Positions 189-30,974 of a stretch of 64,000 bases of DNA are shown one piece after another. The stretch comes from Pararhodobacter zhoushanensis (GTDB lineage Bacteria > Pseudomonadota > Alphaproteobacteria > Rhodobacterales > Rhodobacteraceae). The notes under the pieces were generated by a model, which did not search any database, was not told where the DNA came from, and saw nothing but the letters and a program-made list of their open reading frames with translations. The position numbers were made by a program, and so were the translations under genes. The stretch is from assembly GCF_003990445.1 (NCBI RefSeq), contig NZ_REEZ01000006.1, forward strand, positions 186,001-250,000. Direction: 5' to 3'. Position 1 is the stretch's first letter. Each line of letters opens with the position of its first letter.

Positions 189-213
189 GGAACATTCCCC
201 AGCCTGAGCTGTT
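189..213 (+). promoter_or_regulatory. EcfG-type promoter of the aldehyde oxidoreductase operon
   Basis: GGAAC at 189-193, 16-base spacer, TGTT at 210-213. This is the general-stress sigma (EcfG) signature of alphaproteobacteria. Transcription would start near 220, ahead of the mini-ORF at 248 and the first structural gene at 283. Confidence 0.7.
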
Positions 214-247
214 GCCCCTTGTATGGAATTCGCAACAGGAGCACCCG

Positions 248-286
248 ATGCCCTTAGCCACCCTCAGCCCCGCGCCGCAGCCATGA
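248..286 (+). CDS. possible 12-residue leader peptide
   Basis: ATG 248 follows a good Shine-Dalgarno (AGGAG 237-241, spacing 6) and opens a 12-codon frame, [12 protein letters not shown], whose TGA (284-286) overlaps the ATG of the iron-sulfur subunit gene at 283. The structural gene itself has no clear ribosome site, so the mini-ORF may deliver ribosomes by coupling. The peptide is proline-rich. It could also be chance. An in-frame ATG at 223 would extend the downstream protein but lacks a ribosome site and lies only a few bases after the predicted transcript start. Confidence 0.35.
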   Translation: MPLATLSPAPQP

Positions 287-798
287 AGCTGTCGTTCAGT
301 GTGAATGGAACCCCCCGGACGCTGGATCTGGACCCGCGCGTCACCTTGCTGGACGCGCTGCGCGAGCATTTGCAGCTGACGGGCAGCAAGAAAGGCTGCG
401 ACCATGGGCAATGCGGCGCCTGTACGGTGATCGTTGGCGGGCGGCGGATCAACGCCTGCCTGAGCCTTGCAATGATGCATGAGGGCGACGAGATCACCAC
501 CGTTGAGGGGCTGTCTGGCGAGGGGCTTTCCGTTCTGCAACAAGCGTTCATCGAGCATGACGGCTTTCAATGTGGCTATTGCACGCCGGGGCAGCTGTGC
601 TCGGCGCAGGCGATGCTGGACGAAGTGGCCGAAGGGTGGCCCAGCCACGTGACCGAGGATCTCAATGCCCCCGCCCAACTGACCCAAGCAGAACTGGCGG
701 AACGGATGAGCGGCAACCTGTGCCGCTGCTCCTGCTACCCCGGCATCAATGCGGCGATCCTGCAGGCGGCGGGCACAAAAGCGGCGGACCCGGCATGA
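283..798 (+). CDS. aldehyde oxidoreductase, [2Fe-2S] subunit (PaoA/YagT-like)
   Basis: Small electron-transfer subunit of a three-subunit molybdenum hydroxylase (xanthine oxidase family). It is 171 residues long. The plant-type cluster ligands are in [11 protein letters not shown] (C39, C44, C47) with C59. The second cluster ligands are in CGYC (C97, C100) and NLCRC (C147, C149). Unlike E. coli PaoA, no twin-arginine leader is visible, so the enzyme is probably cytoplasmic. The gene is coupled to the next by an ATGA overlap at 795. An EcfG-type promoter at 189-213 suggests stress induction. Substrate (aldehydes) is inferred from family only. Confidence 0.88.
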
Positions 799-1769
799 GA
801 CCCTTCGACTACAGCCGCGCCGCCGATGCCGACACCGCCTGCACTGCGGCCTGCGCGCCGGATGCGGCGTTTATCGCGGGCGGTACCAACCTGATAGATC
901 TGATGAAGCTTGAGGTGCTTGCGCCCAGCGCGCTGATCGACATCGGTCATCTGGGGCTGGATCAGATCGAGGAGCAGGGTGACGACCTGCGCATCGGGGC
1001 GACGCTGACCAATGCAGAACTGGCAGCGGATCACCGCGTGCGTCGGCGCTGGCCGGTGTTGTCGCGTGCCCTGCTTGCCGGAGCCTCGGGCCAGCTGCGC
1101 AACAAGGCCACCACCGGGGGCAACCTGCTGCAACGCACACGCTGTCCGTATTTCTACGATACCGACACCGCCTGCAACAAACGCAACCCCGGGACGGGGT
1201 GCAGCGCCATCGGCGGCGAGCAGCGCAATCATGCCATTCTGGGCACGTCCGAGGATTGCATTGCCCTACACGCCAGCGACATGGCGGTCGCGCTGCGCGC
1301 CTTGGATGCGAAGGTCGAGGTGCGCACCGCCGGGGGTAGCCAGCGCCGGATCGACCTTGCCGATCTCTACCGCCTTCCGGGCGACACGCCGCATATAGAG
1401 ACCTGTCTCGCGCCCGGAGATCTGATCACGGCGGTGCATCTGCCCGCCGCGCGCGGTGATCGGCAGCAGTATCGCAAGGTGCGCGACCGGGCCTCGTACG
1501 CCTTTGCGCTGGTCTCGGTCGCGGCGGTTGTCGGCATGAAAAATGGACGCATCGACCATATCGCGCTGGCCTTTGGCGGGCTTGGCACGCTGCCGTGGCG
1601 CGACCCCGACATCGAGGCGCTGCTGACCGGAGAAGTCCCCAGAACGGCCCTGTTCGAGCGGGCGGCCGACACGTTGATGCGCGACGCCGAGCCGCAGGAC
1701 GGGACTGCCTTCAAGGTGGCTCTGGGAAAACGGGTGCTCAAAGCGGTGCTGACGGAGGTGACGGCATGA
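795..1769 (+). CDS. aldehyde oxidoreductase, FAD-binding subunit (PaoB/YagS-like)
   Basis: 324-residue FAD subunit passing electrons from the molybdenum site to the acceptor. The FAD-binding loops [11 protein letters not shown] and [13 protein letters not shown] are present. Four cysteines at 117, 127, 136 and 155 have spacing 10/9/19. As I recall, this is the spacing of the extra [4Fe-4S] cluster in E. coli PaoB, which places it in the PaoB/YagS branch rather than in ordinary xanthine dehydrogenases. Start ATG 795 overlaps the upstream stop, and its own stop overlaps the ATG of the large subunit at 1766. Confidence 0.88.
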
Positions 1770-3952
1770 GTGTCGAGATGAAGATTGACGGCCCCGAGCA
1801 GGCCCAAGGCGATCAAACCGGCGCGCAAGCGGTGCTGGGGTACGCGGCTGACCGTCCCGAGGGTGGCCTGAAGGTTACCGGTGCCGCCCCCTACGCCGCC
1901 GAACCCTGCCCTGCGAACATGGCGCATGGCTTTCTGGTGCGCGCACCCGGTTTGGGAAAGGTGCGCTTGACGAACCTTGAGGTCGTGCAGGGCATGGCCG
2001 GTGTGCTGACCGTCCTGCGCGACGACCGCATGATCCGAAACGCTGCGCAGGGCACCAGCGAAGGCGCACCGGTGCAGGGCGTCGATCAGGCCGAGTATGT
2101 CGGCCAGCCCATCGCGCTGGTTGTGGCCGAGAGTTTCGAACAGGCCCGCCATGCAGCGCTTGCCCTGCGTGTCGACACCGCCGGGGACGATCTGGTGGTG
2201 AACCCGCAGGATGCTGTAGCCGCCGATGACGACATCGACGAAACCGCGCAGGGTGATCTGGAGAGCGCCTTTGCCAGCAGCGCGCACCGGATCGACCAGA
2301 CCTATACCACGCCGTCCCTTATCTCGGCGGCGATGGAACCGCATGCGGCGCTGGCCGAGTGGGATGGCGACAAGCTGGTGCTGCGTGCCTCATTGCAGAT
2401 GCTCAAATACAGCCGCACCGAGATTGCCGATTGTGTCGGGATCGCCCCCGAGGATGTCCGGGTGCTGGCCCCCTATGTCGGCGGCGGCTTTGGCTCGAAG
2501 CTGGGCATTTGCGCCGAAGCGGTTGCGGCGGCGCTTGCCGCGCGCCAGCTTGGCAGGCCCGTGCGGGTGGTTCAGCACCGCCGGCAGGTGTTCGAGGTGA
2601 ACACAAGGCGCTCGGAAACCACCCAGCGCATCCGGCTTTGCGCCGATATGAACGGGCAGCTCACCGGGATTGGTCATCAGGCGCTTGTGTCGAACCTGCC
2701 GGGCGAGGATTTCGCCGAGCCCGTGCTTCAGGCCACGCATTTCGCCTATGCCGCGCCGAACCGATTGCTGCGCCGCGAAGTGCTTCGCCTGCACCGGCCC
2801 GCCGCAGGATCGGTGCGCGCGCCGGGCGAGGCTGTCGGGGTAACCGCTTTCGAGATCGCGATGGACGAGCTGGCCTGCGCTGCCGGGATCGACCCCGTGG
2901 CGCTGAGGTTGCGCAATATCCCCCGCAACGATCCCGAAAGCGGCCTGCCCTTCTCGTCGCACCGGCTGGCGGAGTGCCTGACGGATGGGAGCCGCCGCTT
3001 TGGCTGGTCCAAGCGCCCCACCGCCCCACGTCAGCAGCGCGAGGGGGAATGGTGGATCGGCACGGGCATGGCCGCTGCGTTCCGGGTCAATTCGATGATG
3101 GAAGCCGAGGCGCGCGTGGTGCTGTCCGCGCAGGGCGTCAGGGTGGAAACCGACATGACCGATATCGGCACGGCCAGCTACGCCATCCTGGGACAGATCG
3201 CGGCGGAGCGGCTGGGCCACCCTTTGAGCCGGACCGAGGTGATCCTTGGTGACACGGATCTGCCGCCCTCCTCGGGTTCGGGCGGGTCGTTCGGGGCCGC
3301 GTCGACCGGAACGGCGGTGTGGCTGGCCTGCGAAGAGCTGCGCCGCATGCTTGCAGGCAGGATGGGCTGCGACGCGGCGGATCTGACGCTCAAGGACGGT
3401 TACGCGCTGTGCGACAACCGCCGCCGCGCGATTGCGGACCTGCTGGACGGCGCGTCTGTCACTGGCCATGGCCGTGTCCAACCCGGTGAGGCGGGCGACA
3501 AGGTTCGTCAGGCCACCACCGGCGCGCATTTCGCCGAGGTTGCGGTCAGCGACATGACCGGTGAGGTGCGCGTGCGCCGCCTTGCCGGGACCTATGCCGC
3601 CGGGCGCATCCTGAACCCGCGTACCGCGCGCTCGCAGTGTCATGGCGGCATGACCTGGGGCATTGGCATGGCGCTGACCGAGGCCTTGATTCATGACCGC
3701 CGCGACGGCCATGTGGTGAACCGCGACTTTGAGGCGTTCCATCTGCCGGTCAATGCCGATGTCCCCGATCTTGATGTCGCCTTTGTCGAGGACCGCGACG
3801 ACTGGCTGGGCCCGCTGCGCGCCAAGGGTCTGGGCGAGTTGAGCATTTGCGGCGCGGCGGCGGCAGTGATCAACGCGGTCCACCACGCCTGCGGTGTCCG
3901 CGTGCGCGATCTTCCCGCCACGCCGGACCGTGTGCTTGAAGGGTTGGTGTGA
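1766..3952 (+). CDS. aldehyde oxidoreductase, molybdenum-binding subunit (PaoC/YagR-like)
   Basis: 728-residue catalytic subunit that binds molybdopterin-cytosine dinucleotide. Seen in order: an N-terminal a/b-hammerhead region ([20 protein letters not shown]), a pterin loop GGGFGSK, and [15 protein letters not shown]. The C-terminal [10 protein letters not shown] carries the catalytic glutamate of the family. Third gene of the operon, ATGA-coupled. No XdhC/PaoD-type cofactor chaperone lies in the window, so that must come from elsewhere. It ends 12 bases before the convergent ecfG stop, with no obvious terminator between them. Confidence 0.87.
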
Positions 3953-3964
3953 GGGCCGCGGCCC

Positions 3965-4489
3965 TTACAGCTCTTTGTCGCCGAGGTCCGCGATGATCAT
4001 CGCGCGGGCCCGGTTGACCCGGCTTTTCACCGTGCCGATGGCCACGTCGCAAATCTCGGCGCTGCTTTCGTAGCTTTCGCCCAGCATCACGACCAGAATG
4101 AACATCTCACGGTAATGCAGCGGTAGGCGATCGACAGCGCGCAGCACTTCGTTGCCGCGAATGGCCCATTCCTGCGTCGGCGGGGTCGAGGCCTTGTCCG
4201 CGACGCAATCCGCCTCGCCGGGGCTTTCGCGCATGGCCTTGACGCGGGCGTTGTAAAACGTGTTGCGCATGATGGTGAAGAGCCAGGCGCGCAGATTGGT
4301 GCCATGGCGGAACTTGTGCTTGTGTCGGATCGCCTTGAGAAGCGTCTCCTGCACCAGATCATCCGCCTCGGCGACGTTGCGGGTCAGGGTGCGGGCGAAA
4401 GCACGCAGGGCCGGGATCCATTCAAGGGTCAGGTCCGGGTCCAGCGGCTGGTTCCTTTCCTCGAATTCCTCACGCTTTTCTTGCCGCAT
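3965..4489 (-). CDS. ecfG: EcfG-family general stress response sigma factor
   Basis: 174-residue ECF sigma factor with only sigma-2 (about 22-90; ADDLVQETLLKAI, LRAWLFTIMRNTFYN) and sigma-4 (about 112-168; AIGTVKSRVNRAR). LRAWLFTIMRNTFYN is typical of the EcfG group, the RpoE-like sigma of the alphaproteobacterial general stress response. ATG 4489 was chosen because AAGGGAG lies upstream; an ATG at 4594 adds 35 non-conserved residues and has no ribosome site. It follows nepR on the same strand but has its own GGAAC/CGTT promoter at 4663-4688, implying positive autoregulation. Genes around it carry the same motif. Confidence 0.9.
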   Translation of the reverse strand: MRQEKREEFEERNQPLDPDLTLEWIPALRAFARTLTRNVAEADDLVQETLLKAIRHKHKFRHGTNLRAWLFTIMRNTFYNARVKAMRESPGEADCVADKASTPPTQEWAIRGNEVLRAVDRLPLHYREMFILVVMLGESYESSAEICDVAIGTVKSRVNRARAMIIADLGDKEL

Positions 4490-4662
4490 CGGCCCGCTTC
4501 TCCCTTGGCGCTTGTTGGTGTGCGCCGCCCCCAGACGGTTCTGGCTGCCAGACGAGGGTGAAACGGCACGACGGACCTGACGATCAGGACGCATCGAGGC
4601 GAGTCAGTGCCCCGTTCCCCTGTGTCCGTTGCGTTCCCGGTACTGGCAGCACCCTCAGACAC

Positions 4663-4688
4663 AACGCTGGCAGCGCTGTGGCGGTTCC
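4663..4688 (-). promoter_or_regulatory. EcfG-type promoter of ecfG (autoregulation)
   Basis: On the minus strand GGAAC (4688-4684), 17-base spacer, CGTT (4666-4663). It lies in the 304-base gap 4490-4793 between nepR and ecfG and would give a leader of roughly 165 bases. Two other GTTCC strings in this gap (4614, 4633) lack a matching -10. Confidence 0.65.
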
Positions 4689-4793: not shown

Positions 4794-4952
4794 TCAGGAC
4801 CGGCCCTGGCGCAGCAAGCGCTGAAGCTCTGTCGCCAGCTTCAAAAGCCGCTCAGGCGTTTCCTCGCGTTCGATCTCGGCCAGATGTTTCCTGAGGGAAG
4901 CGTCTATCTGCGCATCAGCCTTTGCATCGGTCGCCTTGTCGTCCTCGCTCAT
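4794..4952 (-). CDS. nepR: NepR-like anti-sigma factor
   Basis: 52-residue protein. Its core QIDASLRKHLAEIE followed by ETPERLLKLATELQRLL matches the two-helix NepR pattern (in relatives ...VPDRFLDLLRKL). NepR holds EcfG inactive until phosphorylated PhyR takes it away. It lies directly upstream of ecfG on the same strand, the usual linkage. ATG 4952 (MSEDDK) was preferred to the longer frame from 5027, whose extra 25 residues are basic and not family-like. No convincing EcfG promoter precedes it: the GGAAC at 5080-5084 (minus) has no NGTT at the right distance. The stretch 4953-5117 holds nothing else I recognise. Confidence 0.78.
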   Translation of the reverse strand: MSEDDKATDAKADAQIDASLRKHLAEIEREETPERLLKLATELQRLLRQGRS

Positions 4953-5117: not shown

Positions 5118-5705
5118 CTAGCCGCTGAGACCGAGGTACACGGCCACCGGCACTACAGCGAGCAGCAGCGCCGACAGGATGACCAGCAAACCGTCGCGGG
5201 TCAGCAGGCCAGCGGCGCAGAGCGCAATGGCGGCAGCGGCGATCGAGCCGGATGCCGGCACCAGTTCCATGAACGGCATGAAAAGCGTGAGCAGTGCAAT
5301 CAGCGACAACGGCAGCCAGATCAACGGGCGGTGACACAGAAAGGTCAGCCGCGCTTTCAACAGGCCTTCGACCTTCAGGGCCGGGCGTCGCACCGCCCGC
5401 AATCCCTTGCTCAGCATGGCGCTGCTGATTTCCTGACGGGTGATGATCTGTGGCAGCCAGACCCTGTCGCGGCGCGCCATCATCTGCACCGCCAGCAGGA
5501 AGACGGTAACGGCGACCACCGTCGTCACCCCCGGCACCGCGCTGGCTGGCGAGACGGCGATTAACGAAAAGATCAAAATAAGGGCAGGAAACGACTTTGC
5601 GCCCAAGGTTTCAACGACGTGCTCGACGCTTACCCTCTCGCCGTCGATTGACGCGTCCAAGGTCTCAAGAACATCCGACAGCCGCTGGTCTGCTTGCTCT
5701 CCCAT
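5118..5705 (-). CDS. ExoD-family membrane protein
   Basis: 195 residues with a soluble start (LSDVLETLDASIDGERVSVEHVVETLG) followed by FPALILIFSLIAVSPASAVPG and several more hydrophobic segments to the C-terminus. This is the layout of ExoD, a family linked to exopolysaccharide synthesis and alkaline tolerance in rhizobia. ATG 5705 has a near-perfect ribosome site (AAGGAGG, 7-base spacing), so the longer frame from 5735 is rejected. An EcfG-type promoter lies 45 bases upstream. Exact function is unproven. Confidence 0.8.
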   Translation of the reverse strand: MGEQADQRLSDVLETLDASIDGERVSVEHVVETLGAKSFPALILIFSLIAVSPASAVPGVTTVVAVTVFLLAVQMMARRDRVWLPQIITRQEISSAMLSKGLRAVRRPALKVEGLLKARLTFLCHRPLIWLPLSLIALLTLFMPFMELVPASGSIAAAAIALCAAGLLTRDGLLVILSALLLAVVPVAVYLGLSG

Positions 5706-5749: not shown

Positions 5750-5774
5750 AACAGCAAGCGGGGACGTCTGTTCC
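5750..5774 (-). promoter_or_regulatory. EcfG-type promoter of the ExoD-like gene
   Basis: Minus strand GGAAC (5774-5770), 16-base spacer, TGTT (5753-5750). Predicted start near 5743, leader about 38 bases. Confidence 0.7.
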
Positions 5775-5841: not shown

Positions 5842-6111
5842 TTACGGTTTCCCCCGCGATTGGCGCACCAGCGCCAGAATGTCCTCCATCTCAGCCGCGC
5901 GCGTCATGCCACCCAAAGCGGCGGGCACACCGGCGATGCTCACCGCGCTGGGATCTTCCTGTCCATCAGGGGCCATTGAGGTCTGAACCAGCCAGTCGCA
6001 GAGCGTCTGACACTCTGCGTCAGGCAACAGCGCCGCCATGCGCGCCACCACCGATTGCAAGGCTGCGATGCGCGTTCGCAGTGCCTGAAGCTCCATTTCT
6101 TGCGGTGTCAT
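5842..6111 (-). CDS. hypothetical protein, 89 residues
   Basis: Not recognised. Start ATG 6111 has a strong ribosome site (GGAGGGT). The N-terminus (MTPQEMELQALRTRIAALQSV) looks like a short coiled coil. A middle region has two cysteines (AECQTLCDWL), and the C-terminus is a second amphipathic stretch (TRAAEMEDILALVRQSRG). No signal peptide or membrane segment is visible. It is divergent from the MFS gene. I see no EcfG motif on its strand, so it may be outside the regulon. Confidence 0.6.
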   Translation of the reverse strand: MTPQEMELQALRTRIAALQSVVARMAALLPDAECQTLCDWLVQTSMAPDGQEDPSAVSIAGVPAALGGMTRAAEMEDILALVRQSRGKP

Positions 6112-6227
6112 TGCGACCCTCCGGTCCTTTCTGTTAGCTGTTGAGAAGATCAACGCATCCGGGCGTGATCGGGTTGCGTGCGCGCGCCCGGACGATCCCC
6201 ACGCCCGCCGACACATCGGCGGCGACC

Positions 6228-6252
6228 GGAACCATACCATACCCGGGTCGTT
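6228..6252 (+). promoter_or_regulatory. EcfG-type promoter of the MFS transporter gene
   Basis: GGAAC 6228-6232, 16-base spacer, CGTT 6249-6252. Predicted start near 6260, about 58 bases before the GTG at 6318. Confidence 0.7.
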
Positions 6253-6317
6253 GACCCTGAGAACTCTGGCGACAGCCGGGGTCTTGCCACGCATAAAACG
6301 GAGCAACGACAGGTCTC

Positions 6318-7538
6318 GTGACACGCAACTTCATGCCCTTGGTGGCCCTCTTCGCGGGCACAGCCCTTTTACTTTTCGCCGGTGGCATCAACGGATTGAT
6401 CCTGCCGATCCGTGGTGACGCCGAGGGGTTCAGCGCCACGTCGCTGGGCCTGCTGGGCACCGGCTGGGCCGTGGGCTATGTCGGCGGCTGCATGCTTACG
6501 CCGCGGCTGGTGGCGCGGGTTGGCCACATCAGAACCTTCGGCGCGATGTGCGCGCTTGCTGCCATCGCGGTGCTGGTGTCGCTGCTGGTGATCTCGTCCA
6601 CGGTGTGGATCCCGGTGCGCGCGCTGTCGGGTTTTTGCTTTGCAGGCTCGGCGATGATCGCGGAAAGCTGGCTGAACGAGAAAGCCGACGCGCGATCGCG
6701 CGGACGCATCTTTGGCATCTACACGATGGTCAATCTTGCCGCGACCACGGCGGGGCAGATGGTGCTGACGCTGGGCGACGCTTCCGGGATCTTCTTTTTC
6801 GTGCTGGCCGCCATTGTCTATTGCCTGGCGCTGCTGCCCACGGCCATCGGCGCGACCACCAGCCCGACCCCGCTGACCGAGGTAAAGCTGGACGTCTTCA
6901 GCCTGTGGGCAAACTCGCCGGTGGCGGTGTTTGCCGTGTTGATGGTGGGGATCTCGAACTCGGCCTTCGGGACGCTGGCGGCGGTCTATGCGGGCCGGGT
7001 CGGCTTTTCGCTGGGCGACATCGCGCTGTTTGCCAGCATCCCGATCCTGTCGGGCGCGCTGGCGCAGATCCCGGTGGGCATCGCATCGGACCGCTTCGAC
7101 CGTCGGCACGTGCTGGTCGTCATTTCGGTGCTCGCCGTGGTGACCGATCTGTGTTTCCTGACCATCGGCAGCACCGATCCGACGCTGTTGCTGATCCTGT
7201 CGGGCTTTTTCGGCGCGACGGTGTTCGTCATGTATCCGGTGATCGTGGCCCATGCCAACGACCATGCCGCCCCCGGAACCTTCATTCAGGTCAGCGGCGG
7301 GTTGTTGCTGGTGTCGGGCATCGGCTCGATCGTCGGGCCGACGGTGGCGGGGATTGCCATGGCGTCGATCAGCGCCGCCGCCCTGTTCCTTGTCACCGGC
7401 ATCTGCCACGTGTGCATCACCCTGTTCACGCTATACCGGATCAAGAAATCGGCAGCGCCCACCGAGAAGGGCAGCTTTCAGGCATCGCCGATGTCGCGGG
7501 GTTTGACGCCCGAGACCATAGCCCTTGCCGCCGAGTAG
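6318..7538 (+). CDS. MFS transporter
   Basis: 406 residues with about 12 hydrophobic helices in two halves. The loop after helix 2 (GCMLTPRLVARVGHIRTFG) and the matching one in the second half (GIASDRFDRRHVLVV) fit the major facilitator superfamily, and helices 4-5 contain AESWLNEKADARSRGRIFG as in YcaD/sugar-efflux-like members. Substrate unknown. Start is GTG 6318; the next ATG (6333) has no better ribosome site. It has its own EcfG-type promoter and ends 69 bases before the convergent response regulator stop. Confidence 0.85.
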   Translation: MTRNFMPLVALFAGTALLLFAGGINGLILPIRGDAEGFSATSLGLLGTGWAVGYVGGCMLTPRLVARVGHIRTFGAMCALAAIAVLVSLLVISSTVWIPVRALSGFCFAGSAMIAESWLNEKADARSRGRIFGIYTMVNLAATTAGQMVLTLGDASGIFFFVLAAIVYCLALLPTAIGATTSPTPLTEVKLDVFSLWANSPVAVFAVLMVGISNSAFGTLAAVYAGRVGFSLGDIALFASIPILSGALAQIPVGIASDRFDRRHVLVVISVLAVVTDLCFLTIGSTDPTLLLILSGFFGATVFVMYPVIVAHANDHAAPGTFIQVSGGLLLVSGIGSIVGPTVAGIAMASISAAALFLVTGICHVCITLFTLYRIKKSAAPTEKGSFQASPMSRGLTPETIALAAE

Positions 7539-7607: not shown

Positions 7608-8183
7608 TCAGTTCAGGTGGCGCGGGTAATCGTTGCGGATTTCCTGATCCAGCAGATCGTGCAGCCAGAATGCCATCCGGTCACGGCGGCGGGTCTTGAT
7701 ATCGGCCAGCGCGCGATGCAGGACGGATTCGACGATCCGTTCTGCCGCCGTGGTGTCGCTGATCCGCTGGCGGGCACTGGCGAGCAGGTCGCGCACCAGG
7801 GTTTTAGCGGGTTCGGCGCCCGAGCGTTCAAGACTATGCGACAGCGAGGTCAGGAATTCGGTGCGCAGCGCATACAGCAGCGCCGGAACGCCGATTGGCT
7901 TTGCGTATAGCTCGATATGGTTATGGCGTTGCGGCAATGTCACCTTTTCCAAGCCTGACACAAAGATAAAGGGAATCCCGGCCACGGTCAGCAGATCGGC
8001 CATCTCAAAGCATTGCTCGGTCCCGATCCAGATATCCAGAATGGCGGCATCCGCCTGCGACAAATGCCGGGCAGCCTGAGCCAGAGACGGAAACGGTCCG
8101 ACCACGCTTTCACCGCAGGCCCGGATCTCGCGCGCCATTTCGCTGGCACTGTGGTGCTTGTTTTCCACGATCATGATCCGCAC
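7608..8183 (-). CDS. response regulator: receiver plus sigma-2-like C-terminal region
   Basis: 191 residues. Receiver 1-115: E7 at the acidic pocket (the neighbouring acidic residue is N8), phospho-acceptor D50 (DAAILDIW), S76 (PFIFVSG), K95 (YAKP). PFIFVSG resembles the PFxFxTG receivers used in the PhyR pathway. Residues 131-188 align by eye with region 2 of the EcfG in this window: 132-159 against EcfG 27-54 without a gap (8 identities, several conservative), then FWLHDLL against AWLFTIM after one gap. PhyR has a sigma-like domain before its receiver; here the order is reversed and no sigma-4 part is seen. GTG 8183 is preferred (GGGG upstream); ATG 8174 is possible. Own EcfG-type promoter. 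Confidence 0.75.
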   Translation of the reverse strand: MRIMIVENKHHSASEMAREIRACGESVVGPFPSLAQAARHLSQADAAILDIWIGTEQCFEMADLLTVAGIPFIFVSGLEKVTLPQRHNHIELYAKPIGVPALLYALRTEFLTSLSHSLERSGAEPAKTLVRDLLASARQRISDTTAAERIVESVLHRALADIKTRRRDRMAFWLHDLLDQEIRNDYPRHLN

Positions 8184-8228: not shown

Positions 8229-8254
8229 AACGCCCAGAACCGTTACGCAGTTCC
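8229..8254 (-). promoter_or_regulatory. EcfG-type promoter of the response regulator gene
   Basis: Minus strand GGAAC (8254-8250), 17-base spacer, CGTT (8232-8229). Predicted leader about 40 bases. Confidence 0.65.
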
Positions 8255-11123: not shown

Positions 11124-11141
11124 CCGCCCTTGCGCCGCGCC

Positions 11142-20324: not shown

Positions 20325-20327
20325 TCC

Positions 20328-22163: not shown

Positions 22164-25100
22164 TCCGGGCTGGACGGGCAATGTCAGGACGCCGTCTGCA
22201 ACGGGCAAAGCCGCGCCGTTCAGCACCGCCGCGCTGACGCCCCGGCCCTTGCCGCCGGTGTTGCGCACCACTACCGTCAGGACCATGGCGCCCAGGGTGA
22301 CGCGCAGGCTCACCTCGGGCCAGTCCGGCGGCAGGCAGGGATCAAGCATGAGCGCATCGCCATGCCGGGTCAGCCCGAGTATCCCCTCGATCCCCGCCCG
22401 GTACATCCACCCCGCCGAGCCGGTATACCACGTCCATCCCCCGCGCCCGGCATGGGGGGCGGTGGAATAGACATCGGCGGCGATCACATAGGGTTCGACC
22501 TTGTAGCGCGCGGCCTCTTCGGGCGTGCGGGCGTGGTTGACCGGATTGAGCAGCGCGAACAGCGATTGTGCCGCCGCGCCGTTGCCTTGCCGGGCGAAGG
22601 CCAGAATGGCCCAGAGCGCCGCGTGCGTGTACTGGCCGCCATTCTCGCGCAGGCCGGGCGGATAGCCCTTGATATAGCCGGGGTCTTTGGGCGTGCGGTC
22701 AAACGGCGGGGTGAACAGCAGCGCGATGCCCGGATCGGGACGGATCAGGTGCGTTGTGACCGACTCCATCGCGGTTTTTGCCCGCTCGGGGTCGCCAGCC
22801 CCCGACAGCACCGACCAGGACTGCGCGATGCTGTCGATCTGGCATTCGTCGGACTCGGCCGATCCGAGCGGCGTGCCATCGTCGAAGGTGCCGCGCCGAT
22901 ACCAGGCGCCGTCCCATGCTTCGCGCTCGATCGCCTCATGGACACGGGTTGCGTGCTCCAGCCAGCGCTCTGCCCGCGCATCGCCGCGCGCTTGCGCGAA
23001 GGGGGCCATGCGGCGCAGCGTGGCGATCAGCAGCCAGCCAAGCCAGACCGAGGTGCCCTTGCCCGCCTCACCAACCCGGTTCATCCCGTCATTCCAGTCG
23101 CCGGTGCCGATCAGGGGCATGCCGTTCTCGCCGGTCAGGGCGATGGCCTGATCAAGCGCGCGGGCACAGTGTTCGTACAGGCTGGCGGCCTCGTCCGATT
23201 TTTCCGGCAGAAAGAAATCATCATGCGCGCCGGGGGCTAGGTCAGGGCCTTCGATGAACGGAATGACCTCATCCAGAATTGCCGCGTCTCCGGTCACCGC
23301 GATATATTGCGATACGCCGTAGCCCAGCCAGACCCGGTCATCCGAGATGCGTGTGCGAACGCCCTGCCCCGAATGCGGCAGCCACCAGTGCTGCATGTCG
23401 CCCTCAGGGAACTGCCGGCCGGCGGCGCGCAGCAGGTGTTCGCGCGTCATGTCGGGACGGCTGAAGGACAGCGCCATGCCGTCTTGCAGCTGATCGCGGA
23501 ATCCATAGGCCCCGCTGGCCTGATAGAACCCGGCACGCGCCCAGATCCGGCAGGCCAGCGTCTGATAGAGCAGCCAGCCGTTGAGCATGATGTCCATCGC
23601 GCGGTCCGGCGTCGTGACCTGCACCGCCCCCAATAGACCGGTCCAGTGCTGCGTGACCGCGTCCAGCATGGCGTCGACGGGGCTGTCGCGTATCCGCTGG
23701 ATCAGCGCGCGGGCGTCCTCGATCGTTTCGCATTGGCCGAGCAGAACGACCACATCGACCGAGTGTCCGGGCGCTATAGTCACCTCGCGTTGCAGCACGG
23801 CGCAGGGATCCAGAGCAGCCCCGACTACGCCGTCAAGCGGCTTGCTCAGGCCCATCGGGGCCGAGCGTCCGCCCAGATGGCCGAAAAAGCTGGCTCTGTC
23901 AGCGGTGTAGCCGGTAACCTGCGCGCCCATATCGGCAAAGGCTATCCGCCCGGCAAAGGCGGTGGCCCAAGGATTGCGCGCCATCAGCGCGCCGGTTTCG
24001 GGGTCACGTTCGGTGGTCACATGGGCCAACGTGGCACTGCGCGAGGTGCCCAGAACCCATTCGGTATAACTGGTCACGGCGATGCGACGCGGGGTCTGGC
24101 CGGTGTTGGTCAACGTGAGCCGCGAGACCTTGACCGGATCGTTCAGCGGCACGAACTGGGTCAGCGTCGACGCGATGCCGCCCCGCGCATACGAGAACCG
24201 GCTGTAGCCGAAGCCGTGGCTGGCGGTATAGGTTCCCGGCCCGCGGATCGGTTGGGCGGTGGGTGTCCAGACCTCGCCGCTGTCGAGATCGCGCAGATAG
24301 AGCGCCTCTCCCGCCGGATCGGTGACCGGGTCGTTGGACCAGGGCGTCAACTGGTTTTCGCGGCTGTTTTCCGACCAGGTAAACCCGCTGCCCTCGGCCG
24401 AGACCTGAAAGCCGAAGGACGGGTTGGCGATGACGTTGATCCACGGCGCGGGCGTGTTGGTGCCGTCGCGCAAAAGCGTGGTGTACTCGCGCCCGTCTTT
24501 GGCAAAACCGCCGGTGCCGTTGAAGAACTCCAGATCCTGTTCGGGGGCATCGAGCCCGTCGGGTTGCAATGCCGGGCGCAACGCGGTGGCGGCCTTCTCA
24601 CGCGGTTTGGCCATCTCTGCAGCCGCCTGCTGCGCCACGCGGCGCAGCGTGCCAAGCTGCGTGCCAATTGAGCCACGGCTGGCCACCAGCACCACCCGCG
24701 CCGCTGCCATCAGCAAGGCGCGGGTCGGTGCCATCATCAGATCCGAGCGCAACACATGCACCGTGCCATCGGCCCGCGTGTCCGAGGCGCGGGGCCGCGT
24801 TCCCGCCGAGCGCACCGCCGCCTCGATCATGATTTGCAGATCCTGCACATAGCTGGACGAACGGTCATTCACGATGACCAGATCAACGGCCATCTGCCGC
24901 GCCCGCCAGTATTCATGCGCGGCCAGAATCTCGCGCAGCGCGCCTGCGTCCTGCGCATCGTCGATCAGGAACAACACGATCGGCAGATCGCCCGAAATGC
25001 CTTGTGCCCAAAGCCCTGATTGCGGCCCGGCCCCGGCGATGATCCGCTCTGAGCCCGGACGCAATCGCGAGTCGTTGCGCAGGATCATCCCGGCCAGCCG

Positions 25101-28100
25101 TTGAAAGTCTGCGGCCTGCGCATGCGTTATGCCCAGATGGCGCAATTGCACCTGCGCCTCGGTCCAGGCCAGCGTGCTGGCGCGGCCAAAGGCCGACGGG
25201 TCGCGGTGTCGTTCGAGCAGATCGAGCAAGGCGGCGGGTGTCTCGGCGACGATGGTCCAGAAGGTCACACGCGCCATGCCACCTGCTGGGACCGTGACGC
25301 GGCGACGGATCGCGAAGATCGGGTCCAGCACGGTGCCGGTGGTGCCCGAAAGCGGCGCGTCAGCCATCACCGGATTGGCCATCGAGCGCCCCCGGCCGAT
25401 GAAGCGGGCGCGGTCGGTCTCGTATTGCATGGGCGCGGTTTCCTCGCCCTCGACCACGGCGATATGCGCCGCCCAGACCGACGCTTCGTTGCCTGAGCGC
25501 GGGCGGCGGGTGGCGATGATAGCGCCCAGTTCGGGGAAGTGATCGGTGACCACGAACATCTTGGAAAACGCCGGATGCGCCAGATCTGCCGCCTGCGGGG
25601 CCAGCACCAGCTCGGCGTAGGATGTCAGATCAATCTCGCGCGCCTGATGGCCGGTGTTGGTCAGCGTCACGCGGCGCGCTTCGCTGTCATCCTCGGCCGA
25701 CACGACGACCTCGGTGGTCGTGGTCAGGCCCGCGTCCTTGTGCGTGAACTCGGCATGATGCTCGCAGAACACCGCGCTGTGGGTGCCGCTCGTCTGCGCC
25801 AGCGGGCGCATCGCGGCGGACCATGTCTTGCCGGTGCCGACGTCGCGGGCATAGAGGAACGTGCCCGGCGCATCCTGCGTCGTTTCGGGCCGCCAGCGCG
25901 TGATCGCCATAGTGCCCCAGCGGCTGTAACCGCCGCCCGGCGGGGTGAGCATGACACCGTAGCGCCCGTTTGACAGCAGATGCGCGGTAGGGATGGTGTC
26001 TGCGGGCCGGTCAAAGCGCCGCAACACCGGCGTCGTTTCCACCGTCTTGGGGCCGACCAGCACATCCTCGGCGCGCGGCGGCGCGGCAACCGCGTGACGC
26101 GGCACCCGTTCTTGCAGCAACAGCTCGACCGATTGCACCATCGGGTCGGCGTGGAACCGCGCGCGCAGCAGGCCGTCGCGCACTGTGTTCGCGATGGCCG
26201 TGATGGTCATGCCCTGATGATGCGCCATGTAATTGCGCACGATGGCGACCTTGGCCCCGGCAGGCAGGCGCGAAGGGCTGAAATCGAGCGCCTCATAGAA
26301 CCCATACCGGCCTTCGGCGCCCAGCGCGCCCAGCGCGCGGTAGTTGTGCAACGCGCCGACGGGGTCGACCATGCTGGCCAGACCGGTGGCATAGGGGGCA
26401 ATCACGCGGTCCTCGCTCAGGCCGCGTTTCAGGCCCAGCCCCGGCACGCCGAAGTTTGAATACTGGTAGGTCATTTCCAGATCGCGAGCGTTGAAGGCAG
26501 ATTCCGAAATGCCCCATGGAATATCCTTGGCCTTTCCATAGGCTTGCTGACGCGCGACGATGGCGCGGTTGGTGCGCTCTAAAAGCGAGCCGGCAGGCGC
26601 GCGCATCACCAGCGACGGCATCAGATATTCAAACATCGACCCCGACCACGAGATCAGCGCCGTATCGGTGCCGACCGGCGTCGCGGTGCGGCCCAGCCGG
26701 AACCAGTGACGGGTCTCGACATCGCGCTTGGCGATGGCAAACATACTGGCCAGCCGGGCTTCCGAGGCGAGCAGGTCATAGCAATTGGGGTCAAGACGGT
26801 TGCTATCGGCGGCATAGCCGATGGAGAGCAGCTTTTTCTCGGGATCGACGAGGAAGGCGAAATCCATCTCCATCGCAAAGCGGCGGCAAAGCGTCTCGAT
26901 CCGCTTGAGGCGGGCAAGGTCCGTGCTGTCCCCGATATGGTCGCGAAGCCGCTGCCGGATCGCGGCGACCAAGTCGGCGGTATCGTCGTCTGCATCGGTT
27001 GCCATCGCATCGGCCAGCGATAGCAGGTCATCCGCGTCGGAACCGGCGGCCAGTGCTGCCGCGAAGGCGGCGGTCTTGCCCCCGACCGGGGCGGCCTGAA
27101 GGCCCAGCGCATCGGTCAATCCATCGCGCAGCACGTCCTCGGTGACCGGCTGTTCGCCCCACGCGCGACAGCTTTGCGCGACCGCGATCAGATGACCGGC
27201 CAGATTTCCGCTGTCTACCGATGACACATAGGGCGGTGTCAGCACCCGCAGATCGCGGGTGTCGTACCAGTTATAGAAATGTCCCCGATGACGCGGCATG
27301 CGCTGCATGGTGGCCAGAGTGTCCTCAAGCCGGGTCAGTGCGGTCGATTGCGCGATCCAGCCCATGTCGCGGGCGGTCACGGTGGACAGCAGGTACAGAC
27401 CGATATTCGTCGGCGAGGTGCGATGCGCCACCACCGGGCGCGGCGTTTCCTGAAAGTTATCGGGCGGCAGATAGTGCTCTTGCGGCGTCACGAAGGTTTC
27501 AAAGAACTGCCATGTCCGCCGCGCGATCTGCCGCAGGGCGAGACTGTCTTGCGCACCCAAAGGCTCGGCCACCTGCGTGGCCCCCGGCTCGCTGAGACGT
27601 CGCACAACCGCCGGGGCACTGATCCAGAGGGCAAGGAAGGTCAGCGCCAGCGGCCAAAGCGGTGGATTGACGGCCAAGATCGCGGCGACAAGCGTGACCG
27701 ACACGACCACCCCGCCCAGCATCAGGCGGTACTGGCCAAAGGTGCCGGGAGGCGGCGTGCCTTCGGCCGAGGCGGCAGTGACCCATTCCAGCAAATGACG
27801 ACGGGACACGCCGAGGCGATAGAGGGTGCGCAGGATGGCATCCATCATCAGCACAGCCGTATAGGGCAAAAGCAGGACGGACAGGCCAAAGTTCAGAGCC
27901 GCTGAAAGCACATCGCGGCCATAGGCATTCAGCTGCAGGGGCGAAAACTGCGAGCGCCGCACGGGAATGAGCGTCGAGAGCAGCGGCAACACGTACGGGA
28001 CCGCCAAAAGCCCCAGCAACAGCCCGCTCCAGACCAGCGCGACCGGCAGTGGCAAGGCCCAGCCCGCGACCAGCGCCAGCAGTGTGAGTGGCGCGGTCAG

Positions 28101-30545
28101 CGAGCGGCGAAGGTTGTCGATCAGCTTCCATCGGCCCAGCGGCGGCACGCCGTCGCCGCGACGCCCGGTAATCCACGGCAAAAGCTGCCAGTCGCCGCGC
28201 ACCCAGCGATGCTGACGCTTGGCGGCGACATCGTAGCGCGAAGGGAAATCCTCGATCACCTCGATATCCGAGGCAAGCGCAGCGCGCGCATAGACGCCCT
28301 CGAACAGATCGTGGCTGAGCAGGGTGTTCTCGGGCACCCGCCCGGCCAGCGCCGCCGAGAAGGCATCGACGTCGTAAATGCCCTTGCCCGCAAAAGACCC
28401 CTCGCCGAACAGGTCCTGATACACATCAGAAACCGCAGCGGCATAGGGATCGATCCCGCCGTTGCCCGATTGCAGCCGCTGGAACATCGAACCCGCTGCC
28501 CCCATCGGCAGCGCCGGGGTGACGCGCGGCTGCAGGATGCCGTAGCCGTCGGTCACGCGCTGCAAGGCAGGATCAAACACCGGCCGGTTGAGCGGGTGGA
28601 CCATCTTGCCGATCAGGCGGTGCACCGTGTCGCGCGGCAGGCGCGTGTCGGCGTCTAGGGTGATCACATAGCGAATGTCTTGCGGCACCGGGGCATCGCT
28701 TGGCAAAAAACTCGTATCGGTCGCGCCGCGCAGCAGGCGGTTCAGCTCTTCCAGCTTGCCGCGCTTGCGCTCCCACCCCATCCAGCGGGACTCGCCGGGG
28801 TTATGTTTGCGCGCGCGGTGAAGGAACAGGAAGCGGTTGGCGGCGCCGTTGGGATAGCGCGCGTTCAGCGCGGCAATCGCGGCCCGCGCGGCGGTCAGCA
28901 GCGCGTCATCAGCGGGCATGTCGGCAGCGTCACTGTCGGGACCGTCCGAAAGGATGGCGTAATGCACAGCACCCGGCGCGCTGGCCAGATAGTGCACTTC
29001 CAGCCGTTCGACGATCTCGGTCAGGGCGGTTGTGCCCGACAGGATAACCGGAACGGCAACCAGAGTGCGGTAGTCATCTGGGACGCTCTCGGACAGATCC
29101 AGCGCTGGCAGGCGCTGTGGGGCCTTCAGGCGCGTGACCAGCAGGTTGACCAGTGCCGTTGCCGCCTCGGCGCTGGGCATCAGCAAGAGCAACCCCAGCC
29201 CGAGAAGCGGCCAGACCGACAGCCCGGCGGCAACCAAGGGCAGCAAAAGGGCGATAAGCGCCAGTGTCACCACACAAAGCGACGCCAGATACCCGCCGAG
29301 CCCGACCCGCGCCACGGCGCGCGACAGGCGCAGGCTTGCGGGCGGTGTGTAGCCGATGCTGGCGGCAAACGGCTGACGGTTCTTCCCGATCAGCCAGTGC
29401 CCCGGATCGCGCTCTCGCGCGCTGGCGCCGGTGGTAGTCTGCGACACAAGCGCCTGCGTGATGGCGATCTCGTCATGCGGCGCGTGGCGGGCCAGCGTTT
29501 CGATTTCGTCGCGGTAGCGGTTGCGCGTGGCAAAATCCAGCGCGTCGAAATCGGTGGTCTGGCGCAGCAGCGCGTCAACCAGACTGACCGATTCAAAGAA
29601 TTCGGCCCAGTCCAGTTCAGACAGCACGCGCATGCTGGCAACCAGATTGCGCATGGTGACATTGGCGGCGCTCTGTTCGTGTTGCACCCGTTCGACAACC
29701 GCGTCCAGACTGGTGCCCTGACGCTGCAAGCGATCGTGCAGCCACGGCAACAGCGGCGTCGTATCAGGGTCGAACCCGCGCAGCCGGTTGCCGATCTGTG
29801 CCGCCAGAAAATCGGGCAAAGGCGCGGCTTCATACGGGGCAACGGCTTGATGCAGGGGTGTCGGCGCGCGCTCGGCAGCGCCCATCACGCTGTCAACCAA
29901 GGCATCCGCCGCGCCTTTCAGCGCATGGGCGCGGGTGATCTGCACGACAATACGGCGCATGTTCTCGACCAGAACGATGCGCAAGGTGATGGCCAGCGCC
30001 CAGAGCTCACCGATGGTGAGCGGCTGAACCGTCTGATACGCCGCGACAAACCGCGCGAGGACGGACCCCACGACCAGGCTGTCGGTATGCGCGACATAGG
30101 CCCAGGCAATGCCAAAGACGCGCGGGTAACCGGCGAACGGGCCTGAGGCCAGTTTGGGAAGTTGGCGATAGTAGCCAGCGGGCAGATCTTGGGTGATCTG
30201 GCGCAGTTGCAGCTCGACCAGATGATAATTGTCCAGCAGCCATTCCGCTGCCGGAGCGACCGTCTCGCCGCGCCGCAGGGCATCGGCGCTGAACTGATAG
30301 GCCGAGAGCAGCTCGGCCGCGTTGTCGCGCAACCGCCGGGAAAGGTTGAGAACACGGACCGGACGGTCTGCGATGGCCTGTTCGGCTGCCAGACTGATGG
30401 CGTGGTGTTCAAGCCGCTCGACGCCGAACAGATCGCTGCGGATCGGGGCGGTGTCATCCCACAGTGCAGGGCCGCGCGGGTTAGGCAGCACAGCGTGCAA
30501 AACGCCCTGCCAGGCGGCAGGGCGTTTCAAAGGCGACCCTCTCAT
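22134..30545 (-). CDS. ndvB: cyclic beta-1,2-glucan synthase (NdvB/ChvB type)
   Basis: 2803 residues, close to NdvB length. A soluble N-terminal region is followed by membrane helices near 420-470 and a GT84 glycosyltransferase domain (YVITLDADTRLPRDT; KRQHRWVRGDWQLLPW). More helices lie around 830-980, then a glucoamylase-like region (FYNWYDTRDLRVLTPPYVSS). Two beta-sandwich modules and a C-terminal GH94 phosphorylase domain follow (GFRDQLQDGMAL, GTGDWNDGMNRVG, IKGYPPGLRENGGQYTHAA). It makes and trims cyclic glucan that is exported to the periplasm, protecting against osmotic stress. Start overlaps the stop of the 56-residue ORF upstream; both share an EcfG-type promoter. Confidence 0.92.
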   Translation of the reverse strand: MRGSPLKRPAAWQGVLHAVLPNPRGPALWDDTAPIRSDLFGVERLEHHAISLAAEQAIADRPVRVLNLSRRLRDNAAELLSAYQFSADALRRGETVAPAAEWLLDNYHLVELQLRQITQDLPAGYYRQLPKLASGPFAGYPRVFGIAWAYVAHTDSLVVGSVLARFVAAYQTVQPLTIGELWALAITLRIVLVENMRRIVVQITRAHALKGAADALVDSVMGAAERAPTPLHQAVAPYEAAPLPDFLAAQIGNRLRGFDPDTTPLLPWLHDRLQRQGTSLDAVVERVQHEQSAANVTMRNLVASMRVLSELDWAEFFESVSLVDALLRQTTDFDALDFATRNRYRDEIETLARHAPHDEIAITQALVSQTTTGASARERDPGHWLIGKNRQPFAASIGYTPPASLRLSRAVARVGLGGYLASLCVVTLALIALLLPLVAAGLSVWPLLGLGLLLLMPSAEAATALVNLLVTRLKAPQRLPALDLSESVPDDYRTLVAVPVILSGTTALTEIVERLEVHYLASAPGAVHYAILSDGPDSDAADMPADDALLTAARAAIAALNARYPNGAANRFLFLHRARKHNPGESRWMGWERKRGKLEELNRLLRGATDTSFLPSDAPVPQDIRYVITLDADTRLPRDTVHRLIGKMVHPLNRPVFDPALQRVTDGYGILQPRVTPALPMGAAGSMFQRLQSGNGGIDPYAAAVSDVYQDLFGEGSFAGKGIYDVDAFSAALAGRVPENTLLSHDLFEGVYARAALASDIEVIEDFPSRYDVAAKRQHRWVRGDWQLLPWITGRRGDGVPPLGRWKLIDNLRRSLTAPLTLLALVAGWALPLPVALVWSGLLLGLLAVPYVLPLLSTLIPVRRSQFSPLQLNAYGRDVLSAALNFGLSVLLLPYTAVLMMDAILRTLYRLGVSRRHLLEWVTAASAEGTPPPGTFGQYRLMLGGVVVSVTLVAAILAVNPPLWPLALTFLALWISAPAVVRRLSEPGATQVAEPLGAQDSLALRQIARRTWQFFETFVTPQEHYLPPDNFQETPRPVVAHRTSPTNIGLYLLSTVTARDMGWIAQSTALTRLEDTLATMQRMPRHRGHFYNWYDTRDLRVLTPPYVSSVDSGNLAGHLIAVAQSCRAWGEQPVTEDVLRDGLTDALGLQAAPVGGKTAAFAAALAAGSDADDLLSLADAMATDADDDTADLVAAIRQRLRDHIGDSTDLARLKRIETLCRRFAMEMDFAFLVDPEKKLLSIGYAADSNRLDPNCYDLLASEARLASMFAIAKRDVETRHWFRLGRTATPVGTDTALISWSGSMFEYLMPSLVMRAPAGSLLERTNRAIVARQQAYGKAKDIPWGISESAFNARDLEMTYQYSNFGVPGLGLKRGLSEDRVIAPYATGLASMVDPVGALHNYRALGALGAEGRYGFYEALDFSPSRLPAGAKVAIVRNYMAHHQGMTITAIANTVRDGLLRARFHADPMVQSVELLLQERVPRHAVAAPPRAEDVLVGPKTVETTPVLRRFDRPADTIPTAHLLSNGRYGVMLTPPGGGYSRWGTMAITRWRPETTQDAPGTFLYARDVGTGKTWSAAMRPLAQTSGTHSAVFCEHHAEFTHKDAGLTTTTEVVVSAEDDSEARRVTLTNTGHQAREIDLTSYAELVLAPQAADLAHPAFSKMFVVTDHFPELGAIIATRRPRSGNEASVWAAHIAVVEGEETAPMQYETDRARFIGRGRSMANPVMADAPLSGTTGTVLDPIFAIRRRVTVPAGGMARVTFWTIVAETPAALLDLLERHRDPSAFGRASTLAWTEAQVQLRHLGITHAQAADFQRLAGMILRNDSRLRPGSERIIAGAGPQSGLWAQGISGDLPIVLFLIDDAQDAGALREILAAHEYWRARQMAVDLVIVNDRSSSYVQDLQIMIEAAVRSAGTRPRASDTRADGTVHVLRSDLMMAPTRALLMAAARVVLVASRGSIGTQLGTLRRVAQQAAAEMAKPREKAATALRPALQPDGLDAPEQDLEFFNGTGGFAKDGREYTTLLRDGTNTPAPWINVIANPSFGFQVSAEGSGFTWSENSRENQLTPWSNDPVTDPAGEALYLRDLDSGEVWTPTAQPIRGPGTYTASHGFGYSRFSYARGGIASTLTQFVPLNDPVKVSRLTLTNTGQTPRRIAVTSYTEWVLGTSRSATLAHVTTERDPETGALMARNPWATAFAGRIAFADMGAQVTGYTADRASFFGHLGGRSAPMGLSKPLDGVVGAALDPCAVLQREVTIAPGHSVDVVVLLGQCETIEDARALIQRIRDSPVDAMLDAVTQHWTGLLGAVQVTTPDRAMDIMLNGWLLYQTLACRIWARAGFYQASGAYGFRDQLQDGMALSFSRPDMTREHLLRAAGRQFPEGDMQHWWLPHSGQGVRTRISDDRVWLGYGVSQYIAVTGDAAILDEVIPFIEGPDLAPGAHDDFFLPEKSDEAASLYEHCARALDQAIALTGENGMPLIGTGDWNDGMNRVGEAGKGTSVWLGWLLIATLRRMAPFAQARGDARAERWLEHATRVHEAIEREAWDGAWYRRGTFDDGTPLGSAESDECQIDSIAQSWSVLSGAGDPERAKTAMESVTTHLIRPDPGIALLFTPPFDRTPKDPGYIKGYPPGLRENGGQYTHAALWAILAFARQGNGAAAQSLFALLNPVNHARTPEEAARYKVEPYVIAADVYSTAPHAGRGGWTWYTGSAGWMYRAGIEGILGLTRHGDALMLDPCLPPDWPEVSLRVTLGAMVLTVVVRNTGGKGRGVSAAVLNGAALPVADGVLTLPVQPGSQDLVVTLG

Positions 30546-30712
30546 GTGTCAGAGGCTACGGCGTGCAGTGTTTCTGCCTCGGGCCGTGGCATGGCCGTTT
30601 GCAGCCTGCAGCTGGTGATGCTCGTGGTATCCCGGATCACCGTGACGGACCCCGGCGGGGATGCGCGAAGTGTCATCTCGGCCCATCGCTTTTCGATTTC
30701 CAACCAATTCAT
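30542..30712 (-). CDS. small protein, 56 residues, coupled to the glucan synthase
   Basis: MNWLEIEKRWAEMTLRASPP start; the remainder (VTVIRDTTSITSCRLQTAMP) is not recognised. The opening resembles the start of CsbD-like stress proteins (MNWDxIEGxWKQ), but the rest does not, so I do not call it CsbD. ATG 30712 has GGGGG upstream and lies 54 bases from the predicted transcript start. Its TGA overlaps the ndvB ATG, implying translational coupling. Confidence 0.6.
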   Translation of the reverse strand: MNWLEIEKRWAEMTLRASPPGSVTVIRDTTSITSCRLQTAMPRPEAETLHAVASDT

Positions 30713-30772
30713 GGCAGAACCCCCTCTGTCGGCATGTGTGACTGTGATGCTTGGCAGTGCATGTACCGGTTG

Positions 30773-30797
30773 AACAATGCTGCTGCGCGGAAGTTCC
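30773..30797 (-). promoter_or_regulatory. EcfG-type promoter of the small ORF-ndvB operon
   Basis: Minus strand GGAAC (30797-30793), 16-base spacer, TGTT (30776-30773). Confidence 0.68.
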
Positions 30798-30949
30798 CGT
30801 CGCGCAGAGCATAAACGCCCGTGCACGCGACGGGTTCAGCTGGGCAGGCGGAAGTCCGCCGGATTTGCCCCAAACCCTGCTGCGTTGCGCTGAAATCGCG
30901 CCAGCTTCGGCAACCCCACGCCAAAGCGCAGGATTGTGGTCGACCGCAC

Positions 30950-30974
30950 GGAACCATCGCGCAGATGCGGGGTT
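30950..30974 (+). promoter_or_regulatory. EcfG-type promoter of the oxidase cluster
   Basis: GGAAC 30950-30954, 16-base spacer, GGTT 30971-30974. It lies divergent to the ndvB promoter in the gap 30713-31041 and would start transcription near 30981, about 60 bases before the ATG at 31042. Confidence 0.65.

Follow-up and report, generated by a model that had tools for sequence, protein, structure and literature searches.

The canonical PhyR-NepR-EcfG switch of the general stress response (GSR) is the natural point of comparison for a putative stress-survival module of Pararhodobacter zhoushanensis, found in a 64-kb stretch of the genome (C53:186001-250000, the window). Both have an EcfG-type sigma factor, a NepR-like open reading frame (ORF), a receiver joined to a sigma-like domain, and promoters of the form GGAAC-N16/17-NGTT. 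The module differs from the canonical switch in being a second copy away from the phyR locus, in the physical clustering of its targets and in the average form of its promoters. Whereas canonical PhyR has its sigma-like domain at the N-terminal end and its receiver at the C-terminal end, the corresponding window protein has the receiver first and sigma region 2 second, with no sigma4-like part. Rubellimicrobium thermophilum has a genome of the Rhodobacterales type. It has two GSR loci, the second with a PhyR′, and differs in that its PhyR copies have the usual receiver and sigma-like domains, with no reverse order mentioned in the accessible part of the report (PMC12148442).

Genomes with additional EcfG copies, copies carried on plasmids, and sigma cascades have all been described before. 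Rhizobium etli EcfG2 is a plasmid-borne, non-canonical paralogue with partly separate targets, including a catalase, and each sigma prefers its own promoter; it differs from the present case in that no anti-sigma or regulator gene lies nearby and the source found no motif for its targets (PMC3892343). Three cases are known of an EcfG-type sigma that drives expression of a second sigma gene of this type: Sinorhizobium meliloti RpoE2 switches on rpoE5 through a GGAACC site (PMC6180224) and Caulobacter crescentus SigT acts on SigU (PMC4814048), both precedents for an upper tier, and Sphingopyxis EcfG2 acts on EcfG1 (PMC7083833). These cascades differ from the module in that the accessible parts of the three reports describe no clustered regulon with its own promoter form, RpoE5 having one target and SigU no separate regulon (PMC6180224, PMC4814048, PMC7083833). 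In the literature searched, outside which most subscription papers lie, no report of a reverse-order PhyR, a clustered regulon or such a promoter form was found. The region is read here as a stress-survival module around a type-2 EcfG and the genes most likely under its control, with a cascade driven by the canonical EcfG (EcfG1), two promoter forms and a reverse-order partner switch; taken whole, this reading has an even chance of being right.

The clustering of EcfG-type sites is real. The pattern GGAAC-N16/17-NGTT, searched on both strands with the reversed pattern as control, has 16 matches in the window, against a mean of 2.28 and a maximum of 7 in dinucleotide shuffles (n=100); the reversed pattern has seven, four of them outside positions 1-31000. 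The sequence-only reading had claimed a cluster of such promoters around an extracytoplasmic function (ECF) sigma gene, which is borne out, and each of the 13 sites that it listed has the exact coordinate and strand. Three sites, 14170(+), 32808(-) and 47120(-), were absent from its list. Since 32808(-) is intergenic, 52 nt 5′ of a DUF2231 gene, its statement that the right half has no site in its gaps does not hold entirely; this exception stands at the very start of that half, and 47120(-), being within an ORF, is probably due to chance. The match at 14170(+) may reflect a small RNA, a tandem promoter or chance. Fourteen of the 16 sites end 22-69 nt upstream of a plausible start codon in the correct direction, four starts (5705, 8804, 14732 and 32755) having been shifted by 1-2 bases after reading of the sequence. 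For 4663(-) this spacing holds if the sigma gene is given its longer reading, and becomes 173 nt with the shorter one. The cluster extends to the left of the window, where one site (L003 19494(-)) lies 56 nt upstream of a DUF892 gene and a second (L003 19598(+)) 39 nt upstream of a DUF3008 gene.

The genome (4.83 Mb, 56 contigs) has 196 matches in all, fewer than the 265 of the reversed pattern, and the motif is therefore not enriched genome-wide. The 33.3 kb of C53:185494-218832, 0.7% of the genome, hold 17 of the 196, where an even density predicts 1.4, while 15 other 20-kb stretches of the same genome (300 kb) hold 11 matches and 19 reversed ones. Density elsewhere is far lower, so that the motif is not spread equally over the genome. 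It is extremely improbable that the cluster is a loose motif in a GC-rich genome, selected by eye: the lack of a genome-wide excess would fit such an origin, while the window shuffles, the genome density, the placement of the sites, the further loci described below and a site kept before the acyl-CoA operon on two plasmids all contradict it. For the cluster as a whole chance is refuted by shuffles, density, placement and recurrence; singly, 47120 and perhaps 14170 may be chance matches.

Many of the gene kinds in this block of about 33 kb are typical general-stress genes. The stress character that had been proposed for many of the probable targets holds for the catalase, three PRC-barrel proteins, ExoD, the GH94 glucan enzyme, the acyl-CoA operon, the molybdenum hydroxylase (Mo-hydroxylase) and the oxidase genes, as well as for the DUF892 and DUF3008 genes left of the window. 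Sites at canonical loci are mostly GGAACC..CGTT (canonical form), and cluster sites mostly GGAACA(A/T)..GGTT or TGTT (cluster form). The features of the block, in window coordinates, are these:

3965-4594, minus strand: ECF sigma factor, type-2 EcfG paralogue by Pfam and tree; a shorter reading runs from 4489
4794-4952, minus strand: NepR-like ORF, probable anti-sigma factor, from a sub-cut-off Pfam NepR match and a hidden Markov model (HMM) of canonical NepR
7608-8183, minus strand: receiver-sigma2 protein, 191 aa, putatively a reverse-order PhyR-like protein, from HMM, PDB matches and predicted fold
4663-4688, minus strand: promoter-like site of the sigma gene, canonical form GGAACC..CGTT, by pattern match
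189-213, plus strand: promoter-like site, cluster form, 69 nt 5′ of Mo-hydroxylase genes (283-3952)
5750-5774, minus strand: promoter-like site, cluster form, 44 nt 5′ of an ExoD-family gene (5118-5705)
6228-6252, plus strand: promoter-like site, canonical form, 65 nt 5′ of a major facilitator superfamily (MFS) gene (6318-7538)
8229-8254, minus strand: promoter-like site GGAACT..CGTT, 45 nt 5′ of the receiver-sigma2 gene
8853-8877, minus strand: promoter-like site, cluster form, 48 nt 5′ of a PRC-barrel gene (8454-8804)
8930-8954, plus strand: promoter-like site, cluster form, 60 nt 5′ of a large catalase gene (9015-11123)
11142-11166, plus strand: promoter-like site, cluster form, 54 nt 5′ of a PRC-barrel gene (11221-11574), followed by topoisomerase IB (11725-12720)
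12799-12823, plus strand: promoter-like site, cluster form, 56 nt 5′ of a double PRC-barrel gene (12880-13884)
14170-14194, plus strand: promoter-like site, cluster form, nearest downstream start 224 nt away
14363-14387, plus strand: promoter-like site, cluster form, 31 nt 5′ of a 75-aa ORF (14419-14646) with no Pfam match
14685-14709, plus strand: promoter-like site GGAACT..CGTT, 22 nt 5′ of the acyl-CoA dehydrogenase operon (14732-22163)
30773-30797, minus strand: promoter-like site, cluster form, 60 nt 5′ of a 56-aa ORF (30542-30712)
30950-30974, plus strand: promoter-like site GGAACC..GGTT, 67 nt 5′ of CtaG (31042-31797) and oxidase genes
32808-32832, minus strand: promoter-like site, canonical form, 52 nt 5′ of the DUF2231 gene (32234-32755)

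The 56-aa ORF and a 2803-aa GH94 cyclic-glucan-synthase-like gene (22134-30545) overlap at the start of the latter. A glycosyltransferase 61-like gene (36672-37886) lies between the oxidase genes and a tRNA-Arg gene.

The window sigma is not the genome's canonical EcfG, for which it had been taken, and is a paralogue. In Pfam its Sigma70_r2, PhyR_sigma2 and Sigma70_r4_2 matches are all above cut-off, and, as in EcfG (ECF15) factors generally, it has regions 2 and 4 of ECF type, with a region 2 related to the sigma-like domain of PhyR. The families concerned are PF04542, PF08281 and PF22029, the last at 58 bits against a cut-off of 27 when the genome was searched. The canonical locus is on contig C23, with phyR, nepR, ecfG and a kinase that is read as HisKA_2 type. 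The window sigma gene does not stand beside phyR or nepR, and its neighbours of that kind are the NepR-like ORF and the receiver-sigma2 gene only. By sequence it belongs to a separate clade of EcfG paralogues, type 2, which are often found on plasmids. In a tree, 25 type-2 sigmas are split from 19 others by a 100/100 branch; since the labels were defined by a Cys in the linker (Cys130 in the window sigma), the tree shows agreement of Cys and clade rather than two independent facts. All 20 aligned type-2 sigmas have this Cys and none of the 19 other sigmas in the tree does, and 31 of the 73 loci of a wider set have sigmas that lack it; Cys130 might conceivably have a redox role.

Matches to the window sigma at 1e-20 occur in 146 of 295 genomes of the family. 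Besides its own genome, 15 reach at least 157 bits, while 130 have matches of at most 143.6 bits only, the level of the C23 sigma or below. In the sister species (G222), the sole member of the same genus in the 295-genome draw, the PhyR_sigma2 matches are phyR and one ecfG only. A search of named plasmids gives 333 matching records at 1e-20 or better, a count that takes in more distant members, and eight plasmid loci were examined closely (Roseivivax, Martelella, two Paracoccus, Chelatococcus, Mesorhizobium, Rhizobium and Roseinatronobacter). A related sigma gene on a plasmid of S. meliloti RCAM1115 (L231, about 5974-6496) spans two frames and is probably broken.

Clusters of sites recur around other type-2 sigma genes, and a clustered type-2 regulon is highly probable. 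Palindromic pairs were removed before counting in the 25-locus set, the 42-locus set and the group comparison. The 25 type-2 loci, the window included, have 138 sites besides the sigma genes' own promoters, against 29 of the reversed pattern. A second sample of 80 loci from named genomes, less three duplicates and four unreadable ones, contains 42 Cys-bearing loci, which have 323 sites against 44 reversed; at least five sites are found at 29 of these 42, as compared with one of 42 for the reversed pattern. In seven of the eight annotated plasmid loci (L089 was dropped), 57 of 66 sites are intergenic, against two of 12 reversed ones, where 8-27% of the stretches is intergenic; 49 of the 66, against one of the 12, are both intergenic and at most 250 bp upstream of a coding sequence in the same direction (p 2.5e-5). 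The gene kinds that recur include DUF892 or ferritin-like, PRC-barrel, CBS, catalase, superoxide dismutase, topoisomerase IB, DUF3008 and ExoD.

Gene content nevertheless differs from locus to locus, though the kinds recur, and this suits the view that stress genes were assembled in a variable region for other reasons, for example as accessory cargo of plasmids, each with its own EcfG promoter and without unit control by the paralogue. The acyl-CoA operon suits it as well. Plasmids of Paracoccus alcaliphilus and Pseudosulfitobacter carry this operon at about 75% identity with an EcfG-type site, 19 and 22 nt upstream of the annotated start (22 in the window), and no type-2 sigma was seen within the 19-23 kb examined. 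As a single target followed by itself, the operon with its site also counts in favour of the clustered regulon. In the 23-kb stretch of Paracoccus alcaliphilus this site is the sole match, and the Pseudosulfitobacter stretch has five matches and two reversed. The genomic setting is of the same kind. In the sister species, the flank that starts at window position 38182, beside the tRNA-Arg, is preceded by DNA matching C53 at about 89.5 kb, and about 134 kb that include the cluster (C53:89528-224182) are missing at that junction. Since other pieces of this stretch are found elsewhere in that genome, it is a variable region and not a proven single insertion. The tRNA-Arg(CCG) at window 38037-38113 lies at the right edge of the variable region; in the sister species this tRNA is on another contig. 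Assembly for other reasons is unlikely all the same, because the number of sites falls with distance from the paralogue (101, 61, 63, 39 and 51 per 2-kb step from the sigma gene in the 42 loci, three of them off-centre) and because the sites are unlike the canonical form.

The cluster promoters differ on average from those of the canonical loci, mainly in the first base of the -10 element, while the type-2 sigma's own promoter is usually canonical. At canonical loci, 20 of 32 distinct sites have C at this base. In the first set (25 type-2 loci, five of them lacking an own-promoter site), C stands there in 23 of 138 cluster sites and in 15 of the 21 sites that serve as own promoters. Cluster and canonical-locus sites differ (p 6e-7), whereas own and canonical-locus sites do not (p 0.77, with 34 canonical sites); two of these 34 are one site fetched twice, and the test was repeated with 32. 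Permutation within loci separates own from cluster sites at p 1e-4 over 18 loci of the first set and at p 0.005 over 10 loci of the second sample, where C is found in 76 of 312 cluster and seven of 11 own sites. Base 6 is A or T in 11 of the window's 15 cluster sites, and the canonical form is seen before the sigma gene, the MFS gene and DUF2231. Across the 295 genomes the canonical form tracks a canonical-type match (median log2 ratio -0.16, versus -1.19 without one, p 2.6e-11).

These differences could be differences in strength only, with the canonical EcfG transcribing the entire cluster, GGTT and TGTT boxes marking weaker versions of one promoter, and the paralogue redundant. Sphingopyxis has CGTT, TGTT, CATT and GGTT boxes in one GSR regulon, CGTT being the strongest with both EcfGs (PMC7083833), the EcfGs of Methylobacterium extorquens share C/GGTT promoters (PMC4814048), and the three canonical sites of the window agree with such a scheme. 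A single sigma is rather doubtful, though, as the cluster sites concentrate around the paralogue and are uneven over the genome, the paralogue's own promoter is unlike its neighbours within the same loci, and the excess of the cluster form is no greater in the 130 genomes with only the canonical-type, weaker match than in the 149 with no match (p 0.14). A cascade with two promoter forms is somewhat favoured.

The 191-aa receiver-sigma2 protein, which the sequence-only reading had passed over, reverses the order of PhyR, with a receiver at residues 1-125 followed by sigma region 2 at about 122-191. Its N-terminal part has a receiver fold with PDB matches to PhyR receivers. Asp50, the phospho-acceptor, and Lys95 are invariant in an eight-sequence alignment, and the acidic pair is EN in the window protein. 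An HMM of the C-terminal part matches EcfG-type sigmas at E values down to 4.7e-14 among 11,887 ORFs (0.044 for the reversed profile); by sequence this tail matches sigma factors in the PDB, and its predicted fold matches sigma region 2. Sequence and model together thus show the second domain as homologous to sigma region 2 of EcfG-type factors. In nine of 12 plasmid records common to both searches, the gene is 0.9-7.2 kb from the type-2 sigma gene. Receiver-only relatives of the protein are found near other EcfG-type paralogues, at the L211, L219, L198, L090, G091 and G051 loci.

The adjacent ORF had been called nepR. A NepR-like ORF is indeed present, and its family naming is weak: the Pfam NepR match has an E value of 0.01 and 15.9 bits, below the cut-off of 25.7, and an HMM built from 14 canonical NepR sequences matches it at 0.016. 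The ORF belongs to a NepR-like group found near other type-2 sigmas, within 7 kb of 14 of the 25, two of them doubtful, and probably encodes the anti-sigma factor. The two proteins may form a dedicated partner switch, and for a switch of reversed order the chances are about equal either way. A less probable alternative, which still carries real weight, is that the receiver-sigma2 protein is an ordinary response regulator with a helical tail resembling sigma region 2, or a phosphate sink for stress kinases, and not an anti-anti-sigma factor. Single-domain regulators do work in the GSR, such as SdrG, which is among the nearest solved structures, and MrrA (PMC5964349), and the receiver-only relatives would fit. 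The match of the tail to EcfG-type sigmas and to sigma factors in the PDB, its predicted fold and the proximity of the gene to type-2 sigma genes argue against this alternative.

From sequence, predicted fold and distribution we infer the following regulation and binding. Stress would activate PhyR and free EcfG1, which would transcribe the type-2 sigma gene from its canonical-form promoter. The type-2 sigma would be held by the NepR-like protein until the phosphorylated receiver-sigma2 protein, acting as a sigma decoy, draws that protein off in a PhyR-type switch with the domain order reversed. The freed type-2 sigma would then transcribe the neighbouring genes through its own promoter form. 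The targets had been tied to one signal; since two promoter forms are present, two tiers are the more probable arrangement.

Several observations weigh against this reading. Clusters also surround paralogues without the linker Cys: seven Rhizobiaceae loci, with Asn instead, have 81 sites against six reversed, with a mixed form in which the first -10 base is C in 40 of the 81, and 10 canonical-like loci have 29 sites against one in 187 kb, about one-third of the density of the Cys group. The cluster form, less the reversed control, reaches 12.9 in the 16 type-2 genomes, 4.4 in the 130 with weaker matches only and 3.4 in the 149 with none; the type-2 figure is in part circular, since it was near the type-2 sigmas that the form was learned. 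Genomes rich in cluster-form sites and without a type-2 sigma exist, in which a hunt for hidden type-2 sigmas found none, and seven of the 16 genomes with clusters of their own are covered by motif counts alone. The receiver-sigma2 protein has no sigma4-like part, ending after region 2, to which alone its tail HMM aligns; full-length versions are found in just eight distinct stretches of the 111 scanned, and among those stretches an EcfG-type site is close upstream of the gene in the window only. From the literature, S. meliloti RpoE2 uses GGAACAAA..CGTT promoters, so that base 6 is no general mark, and overexpression of RpoE5 yielded one target (PMC6180224). Several EcfG proteins of M. extorquens share GAAC-N16,17-C/GGTT promoters, EcfG2 having no regulon of its own, and C. 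crescentus SigU, besides its lack of a separate regulon, does not bind NepR (PMC4814048).

For the widespread extra, non-canonical EcfG copies a satisfactory explanation is said to be lacking (PMC3892343). A clustered regulon with its own promoter form gives testable predictions for such copies, naming genes, promoter bases and sigma. If true, a PhyR switch assembled the other way round, with the receiver ahead of sigma region 2, would be a new architecture and would offer a natural way to ask which contacts with NepR suffice. The clusters also suggest that stress tolerance may pass between genera as a package with its own control. More tentatively, with the balance tilted slightly against it, plasmids and variable regions of Alphaproteobacteria may carry a second general-stress circuit that is complete in itself. 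Its parts would be a sigma reading a promoter form of its own, an inhibitor resembling NepR, a PhyR of reversed order that serves as decoy, and a regulon gathered in one cluster; it would plug into its host because the host EcfG reads the promoter of the sigma gene. If true, such a circuit would help to explain why many genomes retain extra EcfG copies.

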